This document shows positions 27,646 through 41,847 of a stretch of 45,893 nt of DNA, piece after piece. Source of the stretch: Clostridiaceae bacterium (GTDB lineage Bacteria; Bacillota; Clostridia; Saccharofermentanales; Saccharofermentanaceae); the NCBI GenBank assembly GCA_012729635.1, contig JAAYCT010000040.1:1-45893 (forward strand), in the 5' to 3' direction. Positions within the stretch are counted from its first letter, which is position 1; each line of letters opens with the position of its first letter. Below the pieces are notes generated by a model, which was not told the DNA's origin, did not search any database, and saw nothing but the letters and a program-made list of their open reading frames with translations. Position numbers and translations under genes: made by a program.

Positions 27646-28761
27646 TCACTTCCGAATCTTATCTTCGATGTAGGAAAGAAGCGGAAACATGTCATTATAC
27701 TGTTTCTGGATAAAGATCGCGGAGCGCTTCCGGTACAGTTCCTCGGCCAGGGCATCCGCGATCGGCATAAGGATCCGCTCATGCGCGCAAAGGACCGGCG
27801 AGGCTTTTCTGAAGTCTCCGGTCGACTGCTTGTTCAGGCAGGCGCAGTGATGATTGCATCGGTTTTGAATGACACAGCCGGCACATTCATCTTTTTCTTC
27901 CTCGTTGAGCCGGTAAAGGCTCCATCTTTTCTCTTCGTCGATTCCGCTCCAAACGTCGCCGATCGAAAAATGCGGTTCTCCGACAAACTGAACACACGGG
28001 TAAATATTCCCGTCCGGACCGACGGAGAGTTGCTTTTTCCCGAGTTCGCAACGCTCGGTACAGTAGTTCTCACCGAGCAAGTGAGAAGAGATCTTCACCT
28101 CGAACGGCGAGAGATAAAACTTTTCCTCCAGAAGCGTTTTCTCCTTATAAAAAGCCGCCAGTTTCTTGTATTGCTTCTTCAGTTCGGCAAGCGTCTTTTC
28201 GTCCCACGCGCCGGCATAGTTCATCGAGCAAATCAGATACCGGAAACCGAGCGAAAAAAGATATCCGACGCTTTCAGCGTAGTACCGGACCGTATTCGGG
28301 GATACCGTCATCAGGACCGGAGCGTAGGGCCGGGAGGCAAGAAGCGCTTTTGCCCGTTGCTCCGTTATTTCAAACGTTGACTCGCCGGAGTGTGTCACTC
28401 GATTGGCGTCGTGGGCCGCTCGGATCCCGTCGAAGGAAAGAGCGATAAACACTTCGTGCTCGAGAGAATATCGTAGAAATGAATCATCCATTAAGAGCCC
28501 GTTGGTCGTGATCTTATAGTGGAATCGGTTTTGCCTTTTCTGATCGAGGGCTTCACCGTACGCGACGGCATCCGTGATCAGATCACGGAAAAGAAGCGGC
28601 TCTCCGCCGAAGAAAATGATCCCGCAATTGGATTTGGACCGGGCGGCCAAATCCATCGCCGCGTGGGTAATCGCGGGTGTCATCGTTTGCGGCGACTGCT
28701 TCACGTAACAGTATTTACAGGAGAGATTGCAGGATTCCGTCAAATGGAGTGTGTAATGCAT
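27646..28761 (-). CDS. Radical SAM/SPASM maturase-like enzyme
   Basis: Enzyme of 371 residues with an N-terminal radical SAM domain: C11-x3-C15-x2-C18 in ESCNLSCKYCYV holds the first iron-sulfur cluster, followed by FFGGEPLLF, the usual GGEP motif that binds SAM. The C-terminal part is SPASM-like with additional Cys clusters (CELGKKQLSVGPDGNIYPC and CAGCVIQNRCNHHCAC), which in this group bind auxiliary clusters. Such enzymes modify peptides or proteins (RiPP maturases, sulfatase maturases) or other substrates. Its ATG overlaps the stop of the lipoprotein gene by one base (TGATG), so the two are coupled. No small precursor peptide is seen nearby. Confidence 0.88.
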   Translation of the reverse strand: MHYTLHLTESCNLSCKYCYVKQSPQTMTPAITHAAMDLAARSKSNCGIIFFGGEPLLFRDLITDAVAYGEALDQKRQNRFHYKITTNGLLMDDSFLRYSLEHEVFIALSFDGIRAAHDANRVTHSGESTFEITEQRAKALLASRPYAPVLMTVSPNTVRYYAESVGYLFSLGFRYLICSMNYAGAWDEKTLAELKKQYKKLAAFYKEKTLLEEKFYLSPFEVKISSHLLGENYCTERCELGKKQLSVGPDGNIYPCVQFVGEPHFSIGDVWSGIDEEKRWSLYRLNEEEKDECAGCVIQNRCNHHCACLNKQSTGDFRKASPVLCAHERILMPIADALAEELYRKRSAIFIQKQYNDMFPLLSYIEDKIRK

Positions 28762-29552
28762 CAGATGATCCCTTCCGCGGCGAGCCAGTCCAGGAAGTCC
28801 CGGACCTGTGCGCGAAGGTCTTCCTCAATGCGTTCCTTTTGCTCCGATTCATACTGCTCAAAGTACTTCTCAATCGTCCCGGAATCGGCTTCCCGGTCGA
28901 TATGGAATGCGCTTGGATCCGAACCCGGATCATAGAACACCGCGGTATTTTCCACGACTTCGGATAAGCGCTCCGCGGTCCCCTTCATGTCATAAGTGTT
29001 GACGGAGCACCAGTAATCGGTTTCTTTCGCCCAGTCATTAATATCACTTTCGGAAACGTACTCGAAACCGATCTCCAGATCCGAATCGTAGCCGTCGAGC
29101 TCGAGTGAACCATTCCATGTTTCGTATTCGTCATCACCGGAGAAAAGATTAGTGGCGGGGAAATGCATTCCCCTGATCGTCTTTGGTTCATCGAACCGGA
29201 CGCCCTTGGCCACGGCTTCTTCTTTGATGATTTGAATGGCTTCTTCTTCGGAAAGGTAAACCGCGGGAGCGACCATAATACAGCCGTAAGAACCCCGGCC
29301 TTCCCCGTGCGCGAAAAAGGGGACGGAAACCCTGAGATCGTCATCATCATCTTCATCTTCGCGGGTATCTTTCGAGCACCCGAATAAACCGGTCGAAAAC
29401 GTTAACGAAACAGCAACGCAAAGGGCAGGCATGGCCCGCCATCTCTTCGGTAACGCATGAAGAATCAGGGGGTTTGTGCGGACGGCTTCTTTCGTTGGAT
29501 ATTTCGGAGTTCCATAAAGGATAACGGGCTCCACTTTCAACTTGCTTATCAT
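28761..29552 (-). CDS. Lipoprotein-like protein coupled to a radical SAM enzyme
   Basis: Protein of 263 residues, family not recognised. Residues about 45-62 are hydrophobic and end in a lipobox-like STGLFGC; a stretch of Asp/Glu follows (DEDDDDD), then a compact domain with GEGRGSYGCIMVAPAVYLSE near 80-100, further Glu-rich helices and a C-terminal helix. The 40-residue basic part before the hydrophobic stretch is long for a lipoprotein signal. The ATG at 29552 has GGAAAGG six bases upstream; the frame is open further upstream to 29741 and overlaps the asparaginase gene. The one-base overlap with the radical SAM gene suggests it is that enzyme's substrate or partner. The lone Cys in GSYGC is a candidate modification site. 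Confidence 0.65.
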   Translation of the reverse strand: MISKLKVEPVILYGTPKYPTKEAVRTNPLILHALPKRWRAMPALCVAVSLTFSTGLFGCSKDTREDEDDDDDLRVSVPFFAHGEGRGSYGCIMVAPAVYLSEEEAIQIIKEEAVAKGVRFDEPKTIRGMHFPATNLFSGDDEYETWNGSLELDGYDSDLEIGFEYVSESDINDWAKETDYWCSVNTYDMKGTAERLSEVVENTAVFYDPGSDPSAFHIDREADSGTIEKYFEQYESEQKERIEEDLRAQVRDFLDWLAAEGII

Positions 29553-29674
29553 TTTGCGCCTTTCCAAGGTCAGCGGATCGTTTTCAAACCATCGTACAAA
29601 AGGGTACCACCGCTTTGCCTTTCTATACTTATCCAATAGACGATTCAGAAGGCGGCAGTGTTTCAGAAGCGGGT

Positions 29675-30682
29675 CTATAAGTTCTTCAGAAACTGATCCG
29701 GGTCCATCCCGAGCCAGGTGCAGAGCATAAGGATCGCCCACGCGGTCTCGAAAGGCATGTCGGGAATCGGCGTGATCCCGGCCTCACGGAGTGCCCGGGA
29801 GGTCGGGTAGAGCGGCTTTTCGGTATCGCAAGGACCGAGAAAAATCCGCTTCCCCTTGCTGTCGCATGCTCTTTTCAGGAAAAGAAGCGAGTACGGGTTA
29901 TCCTCGGAAAGCGCATTCGCGGTCCCCGAGTGGTACGGCTGAACCAGGACATATCGAAACGAAGGCATTCCGACCTGATAGAGCTCATAGCCGTTACAAC
30001 AGGCGGCGGGGACACAAAGCACGGTCCGCTCCGTCGGAAGGGAAGAGAGCTTCTTCATTTTTGAGAGGGCGGAGGCGGACGGAAAGACCGGCGGTTCGGT
30101 GAAATCAGGATTCGGTACGAATGCCCCGCGAACTATTTTTCCCGCGAAGAGATTCCGGAAACTCGAAAAATCGTCCGTACGGACATCGGCGCTTTGGACA
30201 TATCCGGCGTGATGAACGTATATTTTCCCGTCCGATGTCTTTCCGACGACATAAACGCCTTTTTCCGCGGAAGAGACAAGAGCCAACGCGGCTTTGAAAT
30301 TAGCCCGCGCATCACTGTTCGGGTCATCCGGCGGGCGCTTGCTCCCGAAAAGCACGACGGGAACGGTGTATTTGGAGAACAGAAGGTTCGCCAGCTGAGC
30401 GGTATAAGCCATCGTATCGGTTCCGTGCGCAATCAGGATTCCGCAGTGCTTGGTCGGCGAAAATGCTTTGCCGATCGAACCGAAGAGCACGCGGTACATC
30501 TCCGGCGTGATGTTTTCCGAAAGGACGTTGATCGGCTCGATGATGTCAAATGAAAAACTCTTCTTTCGTGCGTTTTCAAGCAGTGTGTACGGAGCGGTGC
30601 CGAGTTCGAGTGCCTTCTTGTGAATGCGGGACGAGATCGTTCCGCCCGTAAAGACCATGAGGATCTTCATTTGTTTATCCAT
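29675..30682 (-). CDS. L-asparaginase-like amidohydrolase
   Basis: Cytoplasmic enzyme of 335 residues of the bacterial asparaginase fold that hydrolyses asparagine (and sometimes glutamine) to the acid and ammonia. Catalytic features are complete: FTGGTI with Thr15, and HGTDTM with Thr88-Asp89; the SKRPPDDPNSDARANF loop is also typical. No signal peptide, so type I-like. AAGGAGG lies 11 bases before the ATG. It follows the FFTR-like reductase gene by 87 bases and precedes the lipoprotein-radical SAM pair by 122 bases, all on the minus strand, so a loose operon is possible. The same fold occurs in archaeal GatD, but the extra N-terminal domain of GatD is absent. Confidence 0.88.
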   Translation of the reverse strand: MDKQMKILMVFTGGTISSRIHKKALELGTAPYTLLENARKKSFSFDIIEPINVLSENITPEMYRVLFGSIGKAFSPTKHCGILIAHGTDTMAYTAQLANLLFSKYTVPVVLFGSKRPPDDPNSDARANFKAALALVSSAEKGVYVVGKTSDGKIYVHHAGYVQSADVRTDDFSSFRNLFAGKIVRGAFVPNPDFTEPPVFPSASALSKMKKLSSLPTERTVLCVPAACCNGYELYQVGMPSFRYVLVQPYHSGTANALSEDNPYSLLFLKRACDSKGKRIFLGPCDTEKPLYPTSRALREAGITPIPDMPFETAWAILMLCTWLGMDPDQFLKNL

Positions 30683-30769
30683 TTCCTTCGTTCCCTCCTT
30701 CTTTTACGACGATTGCCATCCAGATGAATCGGTCGGTTCTGTCGGAGTTATTCATTATTGTCCGTTTGA

Positions 30770-31750
30770 TTATTCGCTCTTGTCCCTTTCCGATCGCTCC
30801 TCTCGTGCAAGAAACGAGTCGGCCGAAAGAGCGGCGATCAGACCTTCTCCGAGTGCCTTCGCGATTTGTAAGGGCTTGCCGGTGCAGTCGCCGGCGGCAA
30901 AAATACCCGGAACCGAGGATTCCTGTTCTTTACTCACGAGTATATATCCGCCCTGTGTTTCCATGCCGGGCACCAGTGAATCGGGAGCGATGGAGGCTCT
31001 CAGGATGAAGATTCCGTCCGTCGGATAGGTTTTCCGGTCGGCGATCAACGCGGTGACGATATTCTCCCCCGCTATCTCGAAGGTTGCGGCGGGAATAATA
31101 CGTTCAAACGAGTCTTTCGGAAGAATGTCCGCCCATTTCTTTAGATCCGGTGCGGAGGCAAAAAAGAGCACCTTACAGCCGATCTTCGCGAGATGCTCCG
31201 CTTCCTCCACGGCATCCGGGGCCTTGGCGATCACCGCGGTTGTTTTGCCCCGATAGAGCATCCCGTCGCAGGTTGCGCAATAACTGACTCCGCGACCGAG
31301 AAACGGCACCTCTCCCGGAAACGGTTGGAAGGTCGACGCACCGACGGTGAGAATGACGGAACGTGCCGTCATCATCCTGTTTCCATATGCGATTTGAAAA
31401 AGCGAGGTATTGTCTTCGGTCGGAAAAGGTACGATTAATTGGACCTGACCCCGGATTTCGACGACGCCCATCGAAAGCGCGTGGGATCGGAACGAATCCA
31501 GAATTTCAGCACCGCTTTTCCCGGGCATTCCGGGCATGTTTTCTACGATTGCGGCTTTATATAGATAGCTGTCGCGGTAATCGCCCGAAATGATGACCGC
31601 GGTTCTTCCCCGGTTTACGGCGTTGATCGCGGCGGAATATCCGGCCGGACCCGATCCGACGATCAGGACGTCGACCGGTTCGGATGCGTACCGTTCCGAA
31701 GCCTCCTCGGGCGTCAGGTGCAAAGCGGTATGTGGCTTCTCTTGATTCAT
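30770..31750 (-). CDS. Thioredoxin reductase-like flavoprotein lacking NADPH motifs (FFTR-like)
   Basis: Flavoprotein of 326 residues in the thioredoxin reductase fold. The FAD site is intact (VGSGPAG at 31-37 and the C-terminal GIFAAGDCTG) and the redox pair C158-A-T-C161 is present. In the second domain, however, the NADPH motif GGGxxA reads A-K-A-P-D-A and the HRRxxxR phosphate-binding motif reads F-A-S-A-P-D. Enzymes lacking both motifs are known from clostridia as ferredoxin-dependent flavin thioredoxin reductases (FFTR), which do not use pyridine nucleotides. It is therefore probably reduced by ferredoxin or another donor. GAGAGGT precedes the ATG. Divergent from the exonuclease gene. 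Confidence 0.82.
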   Translation of the reverse strand: MNQEKPHTALHLTPEEASERYASEPVDVLIVGSGPAGYSAAINAVNRGRTAVIISGDYRDSYLYKAAIVENMPGMPGKSGAEILDSFRSHALSMGVVEIRGQVQLIVPFPTEDNTSLFQIAYGNRMMTARSVILTVGASTFQPFPGEVPFLGRGVSYCATCDGMLYRGKTTAVIAKAPDAVEEAEHLAKIGCKVLFFASAPDLKKWADILPKDSFERIIPAATFEIAGENIVTALIADRKTYPTDGIFILRASIAPDSLVPGMETQGGYILVSKEQESSVPGIFAAGDCTGKPLQIAKALGEGLIAALSADSFLAREERSERDKSE

Positions 31751-31783
31751 TCGGAATACCTCTCAAAGCAGAAGGACTTCTTT

Positions 31784-31792
31784 GATATAATG
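31784..31792 (+). promoter_or_regulatory. Extended -10 promoter of the exonuclease gene
   Basis: TGATATAAT, a perfect extended -10, about 40 bases before the start codon; no good -35. An A-rich tract follows, and a small hairpin (AGCAT/ATGCT) lies close to the ribosome binding site. Confidence 0.55.
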
Positions 31793-31833
31793 AAAACAAA
31801 AAAAACAGCATTTGTCGATGCTATGAGGTGCAT

Positions 31834-32598
31834 ATGAAGCTGATCAGCTGGAATGTGAACGGAATCCGGGCGGTTGCCAACAAAGGCTTTCTCGACAGCT
31901 TTCGATCGTTCGACGCGGACATCGTCTGTCTTCAGGAAACGAAGGCGACCCCGGATCAATATCCGAAGGAAATCGCGGAAATTCCGGGGTATCATGGTTA
32001 TTTTCATGCGGCGGAGCGGAAGGGGTACTCCGGAACGGCTCTTTTTTCGAGAAGCAAACCGATTTCCGTCTCGTTCGGACTCGGAGACGATCGGTTTGAT
32101 CATGAGGGACGCACGATTTGCGCCGATTTCGGTGAATTTGTCTTGTTCAACATCTATTTCCCGAACGGAGGCCAGGGGCCGGAGCGGCTGGCGTTCAAAC
32201 TGGATTTTTACGATTGTTTTTTGGAAAAAGTCAGCCGATTGACCGATGAAGGGCGACAGGTCATCGTTTGCGGAGATGTGAATACGGCGCATCGGGAGAT
32301 TGATCTTTCCAATCCCGCGGCCAATTCCAAAATCTCCGGATTTCTTCCGGAGGAGCGCGCATACATCGACACGTTTATCGATAAAGGATTGGTGGATACA
32401 TTCCGAATGCTCTACCCGGACGCGACGGAAAAATATACCTGGTGGTCCTATAAGACCTTTGCCCGGGACCGAAACGTCGGCTGGAGAATCGATTACTTTT
32501 TCACCGATGAAATATTGGCGGAAAGGGTTGCGGATTCCGGGATGATTTCGGACGTTTTCGGGTCGGATCACTGTCCGATTTTTCTCGCCCTGATCTAA
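31834..32598 (+). CDS. exoA: Exodeoxyribonuclease III / AP endonuclease
   Basis: DNA repair enzyme of 254 residues that cuts at abasic sites and removes 3' blocking groups. All signatures of the ExoIII/APE1 family are present: ISWNVNGIRA at the start, the metal-binding glutamate in LQETKA near 35, NIYFPNGGQG, GDVNTAH with the catalytic Asp and Asn, and the closing GSDHCPI with the catalytic Asp-His. Length is standard. The ATG at 31834 with GAGG just upstream was chosen; a GTG two codons earlier lies within the ribosome binding site. It has its own promoter and a weak terminator at 32604. Confidence 0.95.
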   Translation: MKLISWNVNGIRAVANKGFLDSFRSFDADIVCLQETKATPDQYPKEIAEIPGYHGYFHAAERKGYSGTALFSRSKPISVSFGLGDDRFDHEGRTICADFGEFVLFNIYFPNGGQGPERLAFKLDFYDCFLEKVSRLTDEGRQVIVCGDVNTAHREIDLSNPAANSKISGFLPEERAYIDTFIDKGLVDTFRMLYPDATEKYTWWSYKTFARDRNVGWRIDYFFTDEILAERVADSGMISDVFGSDHCPIFLALI

Positions 32599-35280: not shown

Positions 35281-35568
35281 GTGAGATTTACACCGGAAGT
35301 GCTTTTGGATTTAGAAGAGCAAAGCAAAATCAGGCTGTCGGATGAGCGGCGTGAAAAAGTCGCATCGGAGATGGAGGCGTTTCTGGAGTGTGTCGATGCG
35401 ATGAAAAAAACGGACACGGAAGGCATGGAGCCGCTGTACCACATTTTCCCGACAACCAATGTTTTTCGCGAGGATGAGGTCACGAATACGAATCGGAGAG
35501 AAGAGCTTCTTGAAAATGCGCCGGATCAAAAGGACGGATATTTTAAAGTTCCGGTAACCTTGGAATAA
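35281..35568 (+). CDS. gatC: Aspartyl/glutamyl-tRNA amidotransferase subunit C, copy 1
   Basis: Small subunit of 95 residues that wraps around GatA and GatB and stabilises the transamidosome. The family pattern is clear: an N-terminal helix with EEQSKIRLSDER, a middle helix, MEPLYHIFPTTNVFREDEV and the closing Gly-Tyr-Phe-Lys-Val-Pro. It is only distantly similar to the second GatC (copy at 38498) in its first helix. The GTG at 35281 has GGAGG eight bases upstream. It heads the first gatC-gatA-gatB set. Since GatA of this set lacks its catalytic triad, this GatC belongs to an unusual complex, or can also pair with the second set. Confidence 0.9.
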   Translation: MRFTPEVLLDLEEQSKIRLSDERREKVASEMEAFLECVDAMKKTDTEGMEPLYHIFPTTNVFREDEVTNTNRREELLENAPDQKDGYFKVPVTLE

Positions 35569-35600: not shown

Positions 35601-37055
35601 ATGAGTATCAGCAGACAAAACGTCGAAACCGCCCGGAAGACGGGACAGGAATTTCGAAGCGGAGCCGTTCCAATTTCGGAACATATCGAAAAAACGATTT
35701 CCGGGATCCAAAAAGAGGAGCCCCGTAACCATTGTTTCGTTACGCTTTTCGAGGAACAGGCACACAAAGCGGCAATCAGAGTGGCGCAAAAGCTCCGTTC
35801 AAAAGAAGATTGCTCTTTATTGGCGGGCGTACCCGTCGGTGTTGATGATACGATGATGACCCGGGGAAGGCGTACGACTTGCGGCTCCGGAACACTGGAA
35901 CATTTTATTCCGACCTTTTCGGCGACCGCGGTTCAGAAACTGGAAGACGCCGGTATGATTATTGTCGGAAAACTCAATACCGATGAGTTCTCAATGGGAT
36001 CCTTGACGCAGACTTCATTTTTCGGTCCGACGAGCCATCCCGCGGATGAGACACGGGTTGCGGGCGCGGCGGCCGCCGCCGTAGCCTCCGGGGTGATTTC
36101 CTGTGCGTTGGCGTCGGATACCGGCGGGGCTCTGAGGCAGGCGAGCGCGGGATGCGGCGTTTGCGGAATCCGTCCGACTTACGGAGCGGTTTCCAGACTG
36201 GGTCTGGCCGCTTTTGCTTCGTCGATGGATCAAATCGGCCCGATCGCTTCGGATATCCGGGATTGTGCCGAAATTCTGAATATCATCTCGGGGAAGGATC
36301 CTTGCGATTCGACCTCCGTTGAAATCGATAAAATCGACCTTTCCCGAATTGACTCGTTCTCGCTTTCCGGTCTTCGCATCGGGATTCCCTCCGTGTTTTT
36401 CGAGTCGGATACGGATCCTTTCGTGAAAGCGTCTTTTCATGAGGCGCTCGACGCGCTTCGGTCGGAAGGAGCGGTAACGGAAACGTTTTCTTTGAAAGGT
36501 CTCGACCAGGCTGTCGCGGCATACGCGGTAATATCCTGTGCGGAAGCCTCCGCAAATCTTTCAAGGATTGACGGAATCAAGTACGGTTTTCGTGCACCGG
36601 AGGCGAAGACTCTTTCGGAGGTGTATGAGAGGACAAGAAGCGTCGGATTCGGATCGGACGCGCAAAAAAGAATCATGCTCGGCAACTATTTTTTGTCGGC
36701 CGAGCGATATGAAGAATATTATCTCCGGGCTCTTCGCGTAAAGGCTCTGATTGCCAAAGGCTTCGCATCGGCATTTAGACGCTACGATGTGATCCTTTCC
36801 CCGGTATCCCCTTCTCTTGCGCCGAAAAAGGAACCTTACGATACGCTTTCGATGTTTGAGGAGGATTTTTTTACGGTTCCTGCTTCTCTGGCGGGACTTC
36901 CCGCCGCTTCCGTCCCCTGCGGGAAAAATCCCGACGGCCTGTCCGTCGGTCTTCAGATGATCGGGCCGCATTTTTCGGAAGCGAAAATTGTCGGCGCGGC
37001 CGACGCGTTTCTGCGCATTGGCGGGGGCCAAAAAACGCAAGGGGGGCAAAAGTAA
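35601..37055 (+). CDS. gatA: GatA-like protein, copy 1, without its amidase triad
   Basis: Full-length GatA homologue of 484 residues (usual about 485). In active GatA the amidase signature uses Lys, cis-Ser and Ser to release ammonia from glutamine. Here the Lys of AIKDN is Asp82 (G-V-D-D-T), the Gly/Ser loop GGSSGG is replaced by an alanine stretch (VAGAAAAAVA, 152-161) with a four-residue deletion, and the nucleophile Ser of SDTGGS is Ala176 (SDTGGALRQ). All other blocks are well kept: TTCGSGTLEHFIP, GKLNTDEFSMGS, SSMDQIGPIASD, RIMLGNYFLS and GLPAASVPCG. There is no frameshift or stop. So it looks like a conserved pseudoenzyme, not a decaying gene. It lies between gatC1 and gatB1 with short gaps. 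Possible roles: scaffold, ammonia from another source, or regulation. Confidence 0.92.
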   Translation: MSISRQNVETARKTGQEFRSGAVPISEHIEKTISGIQKEEPRNHCFVTLFEEQAHKAAIRVAQKLRSKEDCSLLAGVPVGVDDTMMTRGRRTTCGSGTLEHFIPTFSATAVQKLEDAGMIIVGKLNTDEFSMGSLTQTSFFGPTSHPADETRVAGAAAAAVASGVISCALASDTGGALRQASAGCGVCGIRPTYGAVSRLGLAAFASSMDQIGPIASDIRDCAEILNIISGKDPCDSTSVEIDKIDLSRIDSFSLSGLRIGIPSVFFESDTDPFVKASFHEALDALRSEGAVTETFSLKGLDQAVAAYAVISCAEASANLSRIDGIKYGFRAPEAKTLSEVYERTRSVGFGSDAQKRIMLGNYFLSAERYEEYYLRALRVKALIAKGFASAFRRYDVILSPVSPSLAPKKEPYDTLSMFEEDFFTVPASLAGLPAASVPCGKNPDGLSVGLQMIGPHFSEAKIVGAADAFLRIGGGQKTQGGQK

Positions 37056-37058
37056 CGT

Positions 37059-38501
37059 ATGGCAAATTTTGAGACGGTCATGGGCATAGAGGTCCATGTC
37101 GAGCTGTCGACAAAATCCAAGATATTCTGCGGCTGTTCCGCGCGCTTCGGCGATGAGGCGAACGCACATGTCTGCGAGGGCTGTGCCGGGATGCCCGGGA
37201 CGTTGCCTACACTGAATCGTCGCGTCGTCGAATACGCGGTTCGAGCCGGTCTCGCGCTTAACTGCGAGATTTCACGCTTCAGCCGTTTTGACCGAAAGAG
37301 TTATTTCTATCCCGACCTCCCGGCTTCATACCAGGTTACACAGCTGTACCATCCCATCTGCAAAAACGGACATCTGGATATCGTGGCGGACGGAAAAACG
37401 AAACGCATCGGAATTAATCGCATTCATATTGAGGAGGATGCGGGGAAATTGGTGCATGATGACTGGGATGACTGTTCGCTCGTTGATTACAACCGATGCA
37501 GTGTTCCTCTGATTGAAATTGTTTCCGAGCCGGATTTTCGCTCGGCGGACGAAGTGGTTGCCTACCTTGAGAAACTGAAGGCTACACTGCAGTATCTCGG
37601 CGTTTCCGATTGTAAAATGCAGGAGGGGTCCATGCGGGCGGACATCAATCTGTCGGTACGACCGGTCGGAAGTGAGAAATTCGGGGTCCGAACCGAGATG
37701 AAGAATATGGCTTCGCTTAAATCGATTGCCCGGGCAATCGCCGGAGAAACCCGCCGTCATATCGATGCCATTGAGTCCGGTGAAACGCTGATTCAGGAAA
37801 CGAGAAGATGGGATGACAACAAAGGCTTTTCATTTGCGATGCGGAACAAGGAGAATGCGAAGGACTACAAATATTTTCCGGATCCGAACCTGATGCCGGT
37901 CATTGTGGAGGAAGAATATATCCGGGAGATCCGCGCGTCCCTTCCCGAGCTTCCGGAGGAAAAGAAGGCGCGGTATATCCGCGAATTCGGACTTCCCGAG
38001 TACGATGCGGACATATTGACGGGGTCAAGATACCTGGTCGCCGTATTTGAGCGCGCGGCGGACATTTGCAAAAATCCGAAGGAAGCCTCAAACTGGGTGA
38101 TGACCGAGCTTTTGAAATTACTGAACGACGCGCAGATGCAGCCGGAGGATATGAAGTTTTCTCCGGATTCACTCGGCACGATTCTAAATATGCTGACCGA
38201 AGGGAAAATTAACCGGGCTGTCGCCAAAAAGACCTTTGCCGAGGTATTCGAGTCGGATGTCGATCCCGTGGATTATGTGCGGAAGAACGGACTGATGCAA
38301 GTTTCGGACACCGGATCGATTGAGCCCGTAATCCGTGAGGTGTTGGACGCAAACCGGAAAGCGGTTTCGGAATATCTGGCGGGTAATGAAAAGAGCATTC
38401 AATTCCTGATCGGTCAGTCGATGAAGGCACTGCGAGGGAAGGGAGATCCTCAGGTGGTTCGGGATTTGTTAATCAAAGGCCTGGACGAGAGAAAGGGATG
38501 A
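37059..38501 (+). CDS. gatB: Aspartyl/glutamyl-tRNA amidotransferase subunit B, copy 1
   Basis: Kinase/transferase subunit of 480 residues that phosphorylates the Asp or Glu on misacylated tRNA and amidates it. Unlike its GatA partner it keeps the active-site motifs: GIEVHVEL (Glu and His metal ligands), the C-x-C and C-x-x-C zinc-type pairs (IFCGCS and CEGCAGMPGTLP), FYPDLPASYQ, the Glu-Glu-Asp of HIEEDAGKLVHD and the VRTEMKNMASL block. The tail domain with YqeY-like helices is complete. The gene starts three bases after gatA1 and its stop overlaps the second gatC by four bases (ATGA). So this GatB appears active although its GatA is not. Confidence 0.94.
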   Translation: MANFETVMGIEVHVELSTKSKIFCGCSARFGDEANAHVCEGCAGMPGTLPTLNRRVVEYAVRAGLALNCEISRFSRFDRKSYFYPDLPASYQVTQLYHPICKNGHLDIVADGKTKRIGINRIHIEEDAGKLVHDDWDDCSLVDYNRCSVPLIEIVSEPDFRSADEVVAYLEKLKATLQYLGVSDCKMQEGSMRADINLSVRPVGSEKFGVRTEMKNMASLKSIARAIAGETRRHIDAIESGETLIQETRRWDDNKGFSFAMRNKENAKDYKYFPDPNLMPVIVEEEYIREIRASLPELPEEKKARYIREFGLPEYDADILTGSRYLVAVFERAADICKNPKEASNWVMTELLKLLNDAQMQPEDMKFSPDSLGTILNMLTEGKINRAVAKKTFAEVFESDVDPVDYVRKNGLMQVSDTGSIEPVIREVLDANRKAVSEYLAGNEKSIQFLIGQSMKALRGKGDPQVVRDLLIKGLDERKG

Positions 38502-38827
38502 TACGGATGACCGACATTCATGAAGCTCCGCCGGAGCCCGCATCGATCGGCGCGGAACAAATCGAGTATCTGGAGCAATTGGCACGGATCCGGCTTTCCG
38601 GAGAAGAGAAGGAGCGGACCGCTCGCGATCTTTCGAAAATACTCGATTACATCGAAATGTTGGGCGAGCTTGATACGGAAGGAGTCGATCCTTTGTCGCA
38701 TCCCGTAACGACGGAGCCTGTTTTTCGAGAGGACAAGGCGGTCAACGACGACCGCAGGGACGCGATGTTGCGAAATGCCCCCGAACACAAGGACGGATGC
38801 TTCAAGGTGCCAAAGACGGTTGAGTAG
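38498..38827 (+). CDS. gatC: Aspartyl/glutamyl-tRNA amidotransferase subunit C, copy 2
   Basis: GatC of 109 residues, first gene of the second, normal set. Compared with the first copy it has an N-terminal extension rich in Pro and Ala before the conserved IEYLEQLARIRLSGEEKE helix. The central LGELDTEGVDPLSHPV and terminal GCFKVPKTVE match the family well. Its ATG overlaps the gatB1 stop (ATGA), which ties the two sets into one translated unit; an ATG nine bases later is an alternative start. Downstream, gatA2 begins 99 bases after its stop, the largest gap among the six genes. Confidence 0.9.
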   Translation: MIRMTDIHEAPPEPASIGAEQIEYLEQLARIRLSGEEKERTARDLSKILDYIEMLGELDTEGVDPLSHPVTTEPVFREDKAVNDDRRDAMLRNAPEHKDGCFKVPKTVE

Positions 38828-38926: not shown

Positions 38927-40411
38927 ATGAAAGACGAGAACATTTTAAACATGACCGCACTGGAAGTCGCCCGGGCGATTCGAAGCGGTGATATAACGAG
39001 TCCGCAGGCGACGGAAGCCGTTCTTTCCGCAATCGAGGAAAAGGACGGTGAACTCAACGGCTATATTCGTGTGTTCGGCGATCGGGCGATCGCTCGCGCC
39101 TCCGAGGTGCAGAAGCAGATAGAGCGCGGAGCGCTGGACTACCCGTTGGCCGGTGTACCCTATGCGATTAAGGACAATATCTGTACCGAGGGCATACCGA
39201 CCACATGCGGGTCCAAAATGCTCGAAAATTTTATCCCTCCTTACTCCGCGACCGTTGTTCATGATCTGGAGAGGGCCGGAGCGGTATCGGTCGGAAAACT
39301 GAATCTGGATGAGTTTTGCATGGGATCCACCTCGGAAACCTCCTTTTTCGGACCGGTGAAGAATCCCTGGGACACAACCCGCGTTCCGGGCGGATCCTCC
39401 GGAGGAGCCGCGGCGTCCGTCGCGGCCCGTATGTCCTTTTATGCGTACGGCTCCGACACGGGCGGTTCGATTCGTCAACCGTGCTCCTACTGCGGAGTTT
39501 CCGGAATCAAGCCGACATACGGGAGCGTTTCCCGATTCGGGCTGATTGCGTACGCGTCCTCATTGGATCAAATCGGTCCGATCGGACGCGATATGTTGGA
39601 CTGTGCCGCGGCACTGAATCAAATCATCGGCAAGGACCCCGCGGATCAAACGACGATTGACACCGTACCGATCGATCTTTCCGCGGCATCGGAATTTTCG
39701 GGGAAGGGTCTTCGAATCGGAGTCCCGGAGGATTTTTTCGCGGAGGGCATCGATCCGGAGGTCGAGGCCGCCGTTCGCAAGGCAGTACATGTTTTTTCCG
39801 AACTCGGTGCATCGGTTACGTCCTTCCGACTTCCGATCGCACGATACGCCATACCGACTTATTATATTATCGCGTGCGCGGAAGCGTGTTCGAACCTTTC
39901 GCGTTATGACGGAATCAAATACGGCTATCGCTCCCAAAACGCGAAAAGTCTTTCCGATATTTACGTGATGAGCCGAAGCGAAGGTTTCGGACTCGAAGTA
40001 AAACGAAGAATCATGCTCGGAAACTACGTTCTTTCAAGCGGGTTCTACGACGCATATTACAAAAAAGCGCTTCAATCCAAGGCGTTGATTCGAAAAGCGT
40101 TCGACGAGGCTTTTGTGAAATACGATCTCATCCTCGGTCCGACGGCACCCTCGACGGCACCTCGAATCGGAGAGAGCCTTTCGGATCCGCTGAGGATGTA
40201 CCTGAGTGATGTCTACACCGTTCTTCCGAATATCGTCGGACTGCCGTCGGCGTCAATCCCTTGCGGGTTTGATCGAAATAACATGCCGGTCGGTTTGCAG
40301 ATGATCGGACCGTACCGCAGCGAGCAAACCATGGTCGGAGCCGCTTGTCTTTTTCAGCGCTCCACCGCGTATCATCTGCGTTTTCCGGAGAAAAGGGGTG
40401 AGGACGCATGA
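38927..40411 (+). CDS. gatA: Glutamyl-tRNA amidotransferase subunit A, copy 2, active type
   Basis: Glutaminase subunit of 494 residues which frees ammonia for GatB. The amidase triad is complete: Lys82 in YAIKDNICTEG, cis-Ser157 in VPGGSSGG and the nucleophile Ser181 in SDTGGSIRQP. The spacing between them (75 and 99 residues from Lys) equals that of known GatA enzymes. Other blocks (TTCGSKMLENFIPP, SSLDQIGPIGRD, RIMLGNYVLSSGFYDAYY, GLPSASIPCG) are standard. The ATG at 38927 matches the usual N-terminus; a TTG at 38846 would add 27 residues that resemble no family member. It ends overlapping gatB2 by four bases (ATGA). This copy can serve as glutaminase for either GatB. Confidence 0.95.
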   Translation: MKDENILNMTALEVARAIRSGDITSPQATEAVLSAIEEKDGELNGYIRVFGDRAIARASEVQKQIERGALDYPLAGVPYAIKDNICTEGIPTTCGSKMLENFIPPYSATVVHDLERAGAVSVGKLNLDEFCMGSTSETSFFGPVKNPWDTTRVPGGSSGGAAASVAARMSFYAYGSDTGGSIRQPCSYCGVSGIKPTYGSVSRFGLIAYASSLDQIGPIGRDMLDCAAALNQIIGKDPADQTTIDTVPIDLSAASEFSGKGLRIGVPEDFFAEGIDPEVEAAVRKAVHVFSELGASVTSFRLPIARYAIPTYYIIACAEACSNLSRYDGIKYGYRSQNAKSLSDIYVMSRSEGFGLEVKRRIMLGNYVLSSGFYDAYYKKALQSKALIRKAFDEAFVKYDLILGPTAPSTAPRIGESLSDPLRMYLSDVYTVLPNIVGLPSASIPCGFDRNNMPVGLQMIGPYRSEQTMVGAACLFQRSTAYHLRFPEKRGEDA

Positions 40412-41847
40412 TCGAATATGAAGCGGTCATCGGACTGGAGGTCCATGTCGAGCTTTCAACCGAGTCGAAAATATTCTGTGCGTGTCCGACCGCTTTCGGC
40501 GGAGCGCCGAATACGCATGTCTGCGCGATTTGCTCCGGGATGCCCGGAACGCTTCCCGCACTGAACCGGGAGGTCCTTCGTTACGCGATTCGCGCAGGAT
40601 TGGCGACGAACTGCGAGATTACCCGAGACGGGAAGTTTGACCGGAAAAACTATTTTTACCCGGATCTTCCGAAAGCGTATCAGATTTCCCAGCTGTACCT
40701 TCCCGTTTGCCGGAACGGGCGGATCGAAATCGGTGAAGGAAAAAACAAAAAAACAATCGGGATCCATGAGATGCACATCGAAGAGGATGCCGGAAAACTG
40801 GTGCACGATCCCGAAGGCAACTGCACCCTCGTGGACTATAACCGCTGCGGCATCCCGTTGATTGAGATTGTCAGCAAGCCCGATTTCCGATCGGCCGACG
40901 AGGTTACCGATTATCTGGAACGACTGAAAACGACGCTTCAATATATCGGCGTGTCCGACTGCAAAATGCAGGAGGGATCGATGCGTGCGGACATCAACCT
41001 GTCCGTCCGTCCGGTCGGCCGGGAAGAACTCGGAACCCGAACCGAGATGAAAAACATGGCATCACTCAAGGCGATATCCCGCGCAATCGAGGCGGAAACG
41101 AAACGCCAGATCAGCCGGATATCGGCCGGAAAACCGATTAAACAGCAGACGCGTCGATGGGACGATGATAAGGGCGTTTCCTTTTCGATGCGAAGCAAGG
41201 AAGACGCACACGACTACAAGTATTTCCCGGAGCCGGATCTTCTTCCGCTTCGTGTGAGCGACGGGATGATCGAAGAAATCCGCCGTGAGATTCCCGAATT
41301 GCGCGAGGCGCGAAGGGCGCGGTATATAAAAGAGCTCGGGCTTCCGGAATACGATGCCGACATCCTTACGTCATCGTTTCCCCTGGTGCGTATCTTTGAG
41401 CGGACGGCCGGGATTTGCGGAAACGCGAAGGAAGCGTCCAACTGGATTATGACCGATCTTCTGAAGCTTTTGAAGGACGAGCAGGTTGCGCCGGAGGACA
41501 TGCATTTTCCGGAGGATTCGCTCGGGAAGATTATTCGTATGACCTCGGAAGGCGTGATTAATCGATCGGTCGGTCGAAGAGTGCTCACCGAGCTGTTCGG
41601 ATCCGATACCGATCCGATTACGTATGTGAAGGATAACGGGCTGGCCATGGTTTCGGATCAGTCGGTAATCGAAACGGCGGTCGACCGCGCGATCCGCGAA
41701 AACGAAAAGGCGGTCGCCGACTACCTTTGCGGAAACCCGAAGAGTCTTCAGTTCCTGATCGGACAAGCGATGCGTCATCTTCGCGGAAAGGGCGATCCTC
41801 AATCTGTTCAGAAGATCCTTTTCGAGCATCTCGAAAAGCGTCGTTGA
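40408..41847 (+). CDS. gatB: Aspartyl/glutamyl-tRNA amidotransferase subunit B, copy 2
   Basis: GatB of 479 residues, close homologue of the copy at 37059, with motifs intact: VIGLEVHVEL, IFCACP and CAICSGMPGTLP, FYPDLPKAYQ, MHIEEDAGKLVHD and RTEMKNMASL. Long blocks are identical between the two copies (for example GVSDCKMQEGSMRADINLSV), so they arose by duplication and remain under constraint. Middle and tail domain are complete. Coupled to gatA2 by a four-base overlap. Together with gatC2 and gatA2 it should form a standard amidotransferase that makes Gln-tRNA and/or Asn-tRNA. Confidence 0.95.
   Translation: MIEYEAVIGLEVHVELSTESKIFCACPTAFGGAPNTHVCAICSGMPGTLPALNREVLRYAIRAGLATNCEITRDGKFDRKNYFYPDLPKAYQISQLYLPVCRNGRIEIGEGKNKKTIGIHEMHIEEDAGKLVHDPEGNCTLVDYNRCGIPLIEIVSKPDFRSADEVTDYLERLKTTLQYIGVSDCKMQEGSMRADINLSVRPVGREELGTRTEMKNMASLKAISRAIEAETKRQISRISAGKPIKQQTRRWDDDKGVSFSMRSKEDAHDYKYFPEPDLLPLRVSDGMIEEIRREIPELREARRARYIKELGLPEYDADILTSSFPLVRIFERTAGICGNAKEASNWIMTDLLKLLKDEQVAPEDMHFPEDSLGKIIRMTSEGVINRSVGRRVLTELFGSDTDPITYVKDNGLAMVSDQSVIETAVDRAIRENEKAVADYLCGNPKSLQFLIGQAMRHLRGKGDPQSVQKILFEHLEKRR

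Follow-up and report, generated by a model that had tools for sequence, protein, structure and literature searches.

Gene content of the locus

The window, i.e., the whole stretch of 45,893 nucleotides that was analysed, lies on contig 39 of a Clostridia-type genome of 2.15 Mb that is 96.65% complete (G000). On its plus strand two sets of GatCAB genes form one unit in the order gatC1-gatA1-gatB1-gatC2-gatA2-gatB2. The features concerned are as follows (identities are to the corresponding genes of G005, an independent genome from the window's genus).

35281..35568, plus strand: gatC1 (TIGR00135 84.5 bits, cut-off 47.1; 63% identity)
35601..37055, plus strand: gatA1, glutaminase-dead GatA of 484 aa (TIGR00132 450 bits; triad lost; AF2 model)
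35844..35846, plus strand: Asp82 codon GAT replacing the catalytic Lys of GatA1 (alignment with intact GatAs)
36057..36062, plus strand: place where the cis-Ser loop of gatA1 lacks 4 residues, between Val153 and Ala154 (alignment)
36129..36131, plus strand: Ala177 codon GCT replacing the nucleophilic Ser of GatA1 (alignment)
37059..38501, plus strand: gatB1, kinase/amidotransferase subunit in which no Mg/ATP residue is lost (NF004012 630 bits; 82% identity)
37323..37325, plus strand: gatB1 Ala89, Lys in intact GatB (residue comparison)
37500..37502, plus strand: gatB1 Ser148, Gly in intact GatB (residue comparison)
37758..37760, plus strand: gatB1 His234 where intact GatB has Gln, the convergent change that marks the GatB partners of dead GatA
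38498..38827, plus strand: gatC2, its ATG overlapping the gatB1 stop (ATGA)
38927..40411, plus strand: gatA2, intact GatA with Lys82, Ser158 and Ser181 (TIGR00132 573.6 bits)
40408..41847, plus strand: gatB2, GatB of the intact complex with Lys89, Gly148 and Gln234 (residue comparison)

At the dead locus gatC, gatA and gatB are all present together; the first-pass annotation had placed gatA1 between a good gatC and a good gatB. On the minus strand, the region 27646-32571 encodes a PapB-like radical SAM/SPASM peptide maturase, two proteins that match no family, and asparaginase-like and thioredoxin-reductase-like proteins, and may be a modified-peptide cluster; an asparaginase homologue lies upstream in G005 too (L050).

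Loss of the catalytic triad in GatA1

The losses were read from the alignment of GatA1 with GatA2 of the window, to which it is 47% identical, and with solved GatAs. The catalytic Lys is Asp82, the nucleophilic Ser is Ala177, and the PGGSS-G of the cis-Ser loop is shortened to an Ala-rich AG, with four residues absent before Ala154 (window position 36059/36060), so that the Lys-cisSer-Ser triad that marks GatA is missing at all three places. The first-pass annotation had described the same losses; Asp82 and the alanine stretch with four residues deleted were confirmed, and the Ser to Ala replacement is true as well, only its number, given as 176, was off by one. GatA1 scores 450 bits against the curated TIGR00132 cut-off of 481.1. 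As the NCBI GatA model places the window protein just below its cut-off, there is a risk that annotation will call such proteins ordinary GatAs or generic amidases.

The 484-codon frame is open throughout, as had been stated, and of the 108 columns conserved at 95% or more across 83 intact GatAs, the dead copies of the window and of G005 both keep 77, which bears out the claim that the other family blocks are well conserved. According to the AF2 model (pLDDT 84.6; TM 0.92 to S. aureus GatA, 2df4_A), the predicted structure is a confident amidase-signature GatA fold, and in the phylogeny GatA1 branches from within the intact GatAs of its own family.

Conservation within the genus

The three triad sites are D/T/A in G005, and the loop deletion and the gene order are shared with the window (ADH-gatC1-gatA1-gatB1-gatC2-gatA2-gatB2-hlyC, split across two contigs); since this is a separate genome of the genus, the losses are not an assembly error. 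In other genera (G001, G003) a single intact gatCAB stands between equivalent neighbours. The intact triad in close relatives that the first-pass annotation had named as evidence against its reading was thus not seen in G005, and the recurrence it had proposed to look for, together with synteny to a second gatCAB, was; the losses recur also in other gut Clostridia. Between G000 and G005 the dN/dS is 0.205 for gatA1, 0.05 for gatB1, 0.074 for gatA2 and 0.089 for gatB2, rough values, as dS is near 2 (saturated); that of gatA1 is far from the value near 1 proposed as a sign of decay, and the constraint on it is relaxed yet clear.

One may ask if gatA1 is a duplicate en route to a pseudogene. Its dN/dS is approximately 3–4 times that of gatA2 and gatB1 and its branches are long, but its reading frame is intact in two species between which 43% of its residues differ, the same residues are lost in at least four lineages and the partner GatB changes convergently, which makes decay very unlikely. 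The earlier judgement that the gene is selected, not decayed, therefore stands on recurrence within the clade and, beyond it, in three or more further lineages, on a dN/dS of about 0.2 (with dS saturated), on the kept GatB and on its convergent change.

In a third genome of the genus (G006) the contigs stop short of gatA, and the two gatB copies, each similar to gatB2, form two gatB2-hlyC loci on separate contigs (L152, L153); it is probably a mixed assembly. Divergent, short GatAs with an intact triad occupy the usual gatB-hlyC place elsewhere in the window's family (L054, L056, L057 and L058, in G047, G087, G058 and G090).

Recurrence of dead GatA

Triad-less GatAs fall into four groups: (a) the window type (G000, G005); (b) the forms of G115 and G116, both termite-gut genomes; (c) a large clade found in the family to which G116 belongs and also in G002, a member of the window's family; and (d) those of four f2 genomes. 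Group (c) includes two forms: one of 400 residues lacks the N-terminus and has the motifs VDDTILVK and D-NGAPRRAA, and the other, of 445 residues, retains the Ser. Asp has replaced the Lys in (a), in the 400-residue form of (c) and in one of the two members of (b). A GatA tree with the catalytic columns omitted forces at least three origins of dead GatA; it rejects monophyly of window and termite forms (p 8e-5) and does not reject the union of window and clade (c) (p 0.23). The GatB tree separates the latter two and forces at least four origins, with starred support, and a single origin was rejected on these grounds.

The equivalents of S. aureus Tyr309, Arg358 and Asp425, the Gln-binding residues (an assignment supported for the Arg and the Asp), are also lost in most dead lineages, which indicates that glutamine is no longer bound there; the window form retains the Arg and the Asp. 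A full-length gatA of another genome (L187, G274) keeps the Lys and the cis-Ser and has Ala at the nucleophile and at a nearby Asp, and possibly represents an early stage of loss or a sequence error. In a very divergent gatA-gatB pair (L227, G301:C80) most active-site residues are missing in both subunits. The plasmid collection contained ordinary GatA only and no dead form.

In approximately 15 of the genomes examined, mostly draft MAGs, dead GatA is the sole GatA match (G115, G116, G264, G253, G270, G334, G322, G199, G315, G245, G285, G311 and the four f2 genomes, which are 89–96% complete). At least five dead-only genomes have GlnRS and no AsnRS match (G264, G199, G315, G311, G153), though in draft MAGs the lack of an intact GatA or AsnRS may reflect gaps in the assembly, and completeness figures cover f1 and f2. 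If these assemblies are complete, there is a strong, albeit not final, case that the dead complex makes Asn-tRNA in them. An amidase of G116, with a homologue in G115, was considered as a hidden intact GatA and dismissed, since it scores far better as other amidases. Intact GatA coexists with the dead one in the window genome and nine others.

Asparagine decoding and operon context

In groups (c) and (d) the dead gene lies within an AspRS-gatC-gatA-gatB operon, and AspRS-GatC fusions of approximately 700–730 aa are common in dead operons; many fusion proteins of this size were noted in gut Clostridia (L209-L219, L148-L151). The AspRS of these operons has RDHGG (His) in (c) and Met at the specificity site in (d). 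His in place of Leu in the RD-H-G-G motif (position 31) is presumably the mark of bacterial non-discriminating AspRS. G000 encodes, besides GluRS, GlnRS and LysRS, AspRS1 with RDLGG and AspRS2 with RDHGG; the latter is encoded elsewhere in the genome and is read, by its motif, as the non-discriminating type. AspRS2 of G000 and G005 (L122, G000:C24; L124, G005:C80) are 96–97% identical, compared with 76% for AspRS1 and 77% for GatA2, which suggests recent horizontal exchange of AspRS2 between the two species. A second AspRS was discarded as a specific mark of dead GatA, because AspRS2 is common in genus g4, where nearly all genomes have a single intact GatA.

A search for AsnRS in G000 (96.65% complete) gave no match and GlnRS is present, hence the genome needs GatCAB for Asn, not for Gln. 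Its tRNA-Asn (L165, 129-204) begins with T, and U1 pairs with A72, the pair that GatCAB requires (PMC4206432).

No conserved extra gene was found in the dead operons apart from asparaginase-family genes, which flank three of them at varying positions (L209 6297-7343, L214 6613-7659, L220 1519-2529) and could supply Asp and ammonia together. An asparaginase gene also lies in the window, 5 kb upstream of the dead set (29675-30682, minus strand). These neighbours, as well as the gatC2-gatB1 overlap, by which the dead and intact sets of the window are probably co-transcribed, would accord with a dead complex that borrows ammonia by contact from intact GatA2 or from an asparaginase or glutaminase, just as archaeal GatD, of asparaginase fold, feeds GatE. 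Such borrowing seems unlikely, as approximately 15 genomes have no intact GatA match and most dead operons have no asparaginase neighbour. Moreover, the neighbouring asparaginases score 74–104 bits against GatD cut-offs of 310–324; the system is not GatDE, and the partner of dead GatA is GatB.

Convergent changes in the partner GatB

The Mg/ATP residues named for GatFAB (PMC4027206) are kept in all GatBs compared. At residue 234, which corresponds to S. aureus Gln231, His is present in 25/25 partners of dead GatA, among which L070 was counted as belonging to G115, whose GatA is dead; it is found in 0/81 other GatBs, all 81 of which have Gln. Solved GatBs have Gln in four cases and Ile in one. 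On a GatB tree built without the scored sites His234 arises four times, exactly at the origins of dead GatA (4/4 independent pairs; sign test p 0.125, four pairs being too few to reach significance). The change tracks dead GatA and not Asp specificity, because GatB2 and the GatBs of G001 and G003 keep Gln234 in genomes that contain GlnRS. Ser148 and the loss of Lys89 accompany three of the four dead origins, and the f2 lineage retains Lys89 and Gly148. Glu121 of GatB was also tried as a mark of dead GatA and abandoned, as Arg occupies this position in S. aureus and in others whose GatA is intact.

The dead complex might instead bind Asp-tRNA(Asn) or AspRS and control flux or fidelity without amidation, a view to which the coexistence of intact GatA in ten genomes, the window's included, and the faster evolution of gatA1 relative to its neighbours lend something. 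But none of the ATP/Mg residues of GatB is lost and its rate of evolution is as low as that of GatB2, and genomes with dead GatA only, a non-discriminating-type AspRS and no AsnRS would be left with no Asn-tRNA, so a purely scaffolding or regulatory role is quite unlikely. The first-pass annotation had offered a scaffold through which GatB could use free ammonia, a regulator in competition with active GatA, or a part in a complex with a new job. The first fits best, since with dead GatA as the sole GatA in approximately 15 genomes nothing active is left to compete with; the competing regulator is disfavoured in general and possible for the window genome taken alone. It is highly improbable that a nucleophile other than ammonia captures the activated aspartyl-phosphate tRNA to give a new aminoacyl-tRNA: the donor site is gone and several GatB residues are changed, as such chemistry might have it, yet AsnRS-less genomes require Asn-tRNA(Asn) as the product and dead operons hold no conserved extra enzyme.

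A probable ammonia-fed amidotransferase

From the observed losses and their recurrence, the conserved complex and GatB active site, the convergent GatB change and the genomes without a match to intact GatA or AsnRS, we infer that gatC1-gatA1-gatB1 encodes a glutaminase-free, probably ammonia-fed Asp-tRNA(Asn) amidotransferase, to which we give a probability of about 0.6. Free ammonia most likely takes the place of glutamine, because the losses arose several times and the partner subunit changed alike each time. Asp-tRNA(Asn) would be made by a non-discriminating AspRS (AspRS2, encoded in the operon or fused to GatC in relatives), and its aspartyl side chain would be phosphorylated by GatB with ATP. 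GatA1 would be retained as a structural, tunnel-forming subunit unable to split glutamine, its triad loss predicting no glutamine-dependent amidation, and free ammonia, plentiful in gut contents, would reach GatB through or beside it to give Asn-tRNA(Asn). The recurrent GatB changes, His234 among them, may then be an adaptation to ammonia over glutamine. In the window genome, with its intact GatCAB2, the dead complex would provide a second, glutamine-sparing route, although its own role alongside the intact enzyme is less certain.

To our knowledge, all characterised GatCABs couple glutamine hydrolysis to amidation, and a literature search, with subscription journals mostly outside its reach, found no report of a dead GatA. 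The dead set shares with bacterial GatCAB the three subunits and their gene order, the fold, the kinase/amidotransferase residues of GatB, the AspRS partner and a tRNA-Asn with U1-A72, but differs in a GatA without Lys-cisSer-Ser and mostly without the glutamine pocket, and in a GatB with His234 and other recurrent changes. Unlike GatDE, in which a GatD subunit of asparaginase fold accompanies GatE, dead GatA is partnered by GatB. The joining of AspRS to GatC in many dead operons resembles the AspRS-GatC fusions (NF009460/PRK12820) and the Asn-transamidosome, while that family annotation implies nothing on dead GatA. AsnA, the ammonia-dependent asparagine synthetase, likewise converts aspartate and ammonia to asparagine; however, it acts on free Asp and is related to class II synthetases, not to GatCAB. 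Carbamoyl phosphate synthetase I retains a dead glutaminase part without the catalytic Cys. It derives from a glutamine-dependent amidotransferase and evolved to ammonia dependence (PMC6022934), as the dead GatCAB would have done, although its fold and reaction are unrelated and its ammonia dependence is proven. GatFAB also transamidates with NH4Cl in vitro, the glutaminase being bypassed, an activity that is improved in one GatF mutant (PMC4027206).

The chances are about even that these complexes form a convergent amidotransferase class without a glutamine donor, its GatB rewired (His234) for direct ammonia capture, on which Asn decoding in some gut Clostridia wholly depends. If the ammonia-fed reading is true, this natural glutaminase-less set would show how a channelled amidotransferase becomes ammonia-fed, the recurrent changes would point to the GatB residues that govern the capture of ammonia, and in part of the gut microbiota free ammonia would be a direct requirement for the incorporation of asparagine.
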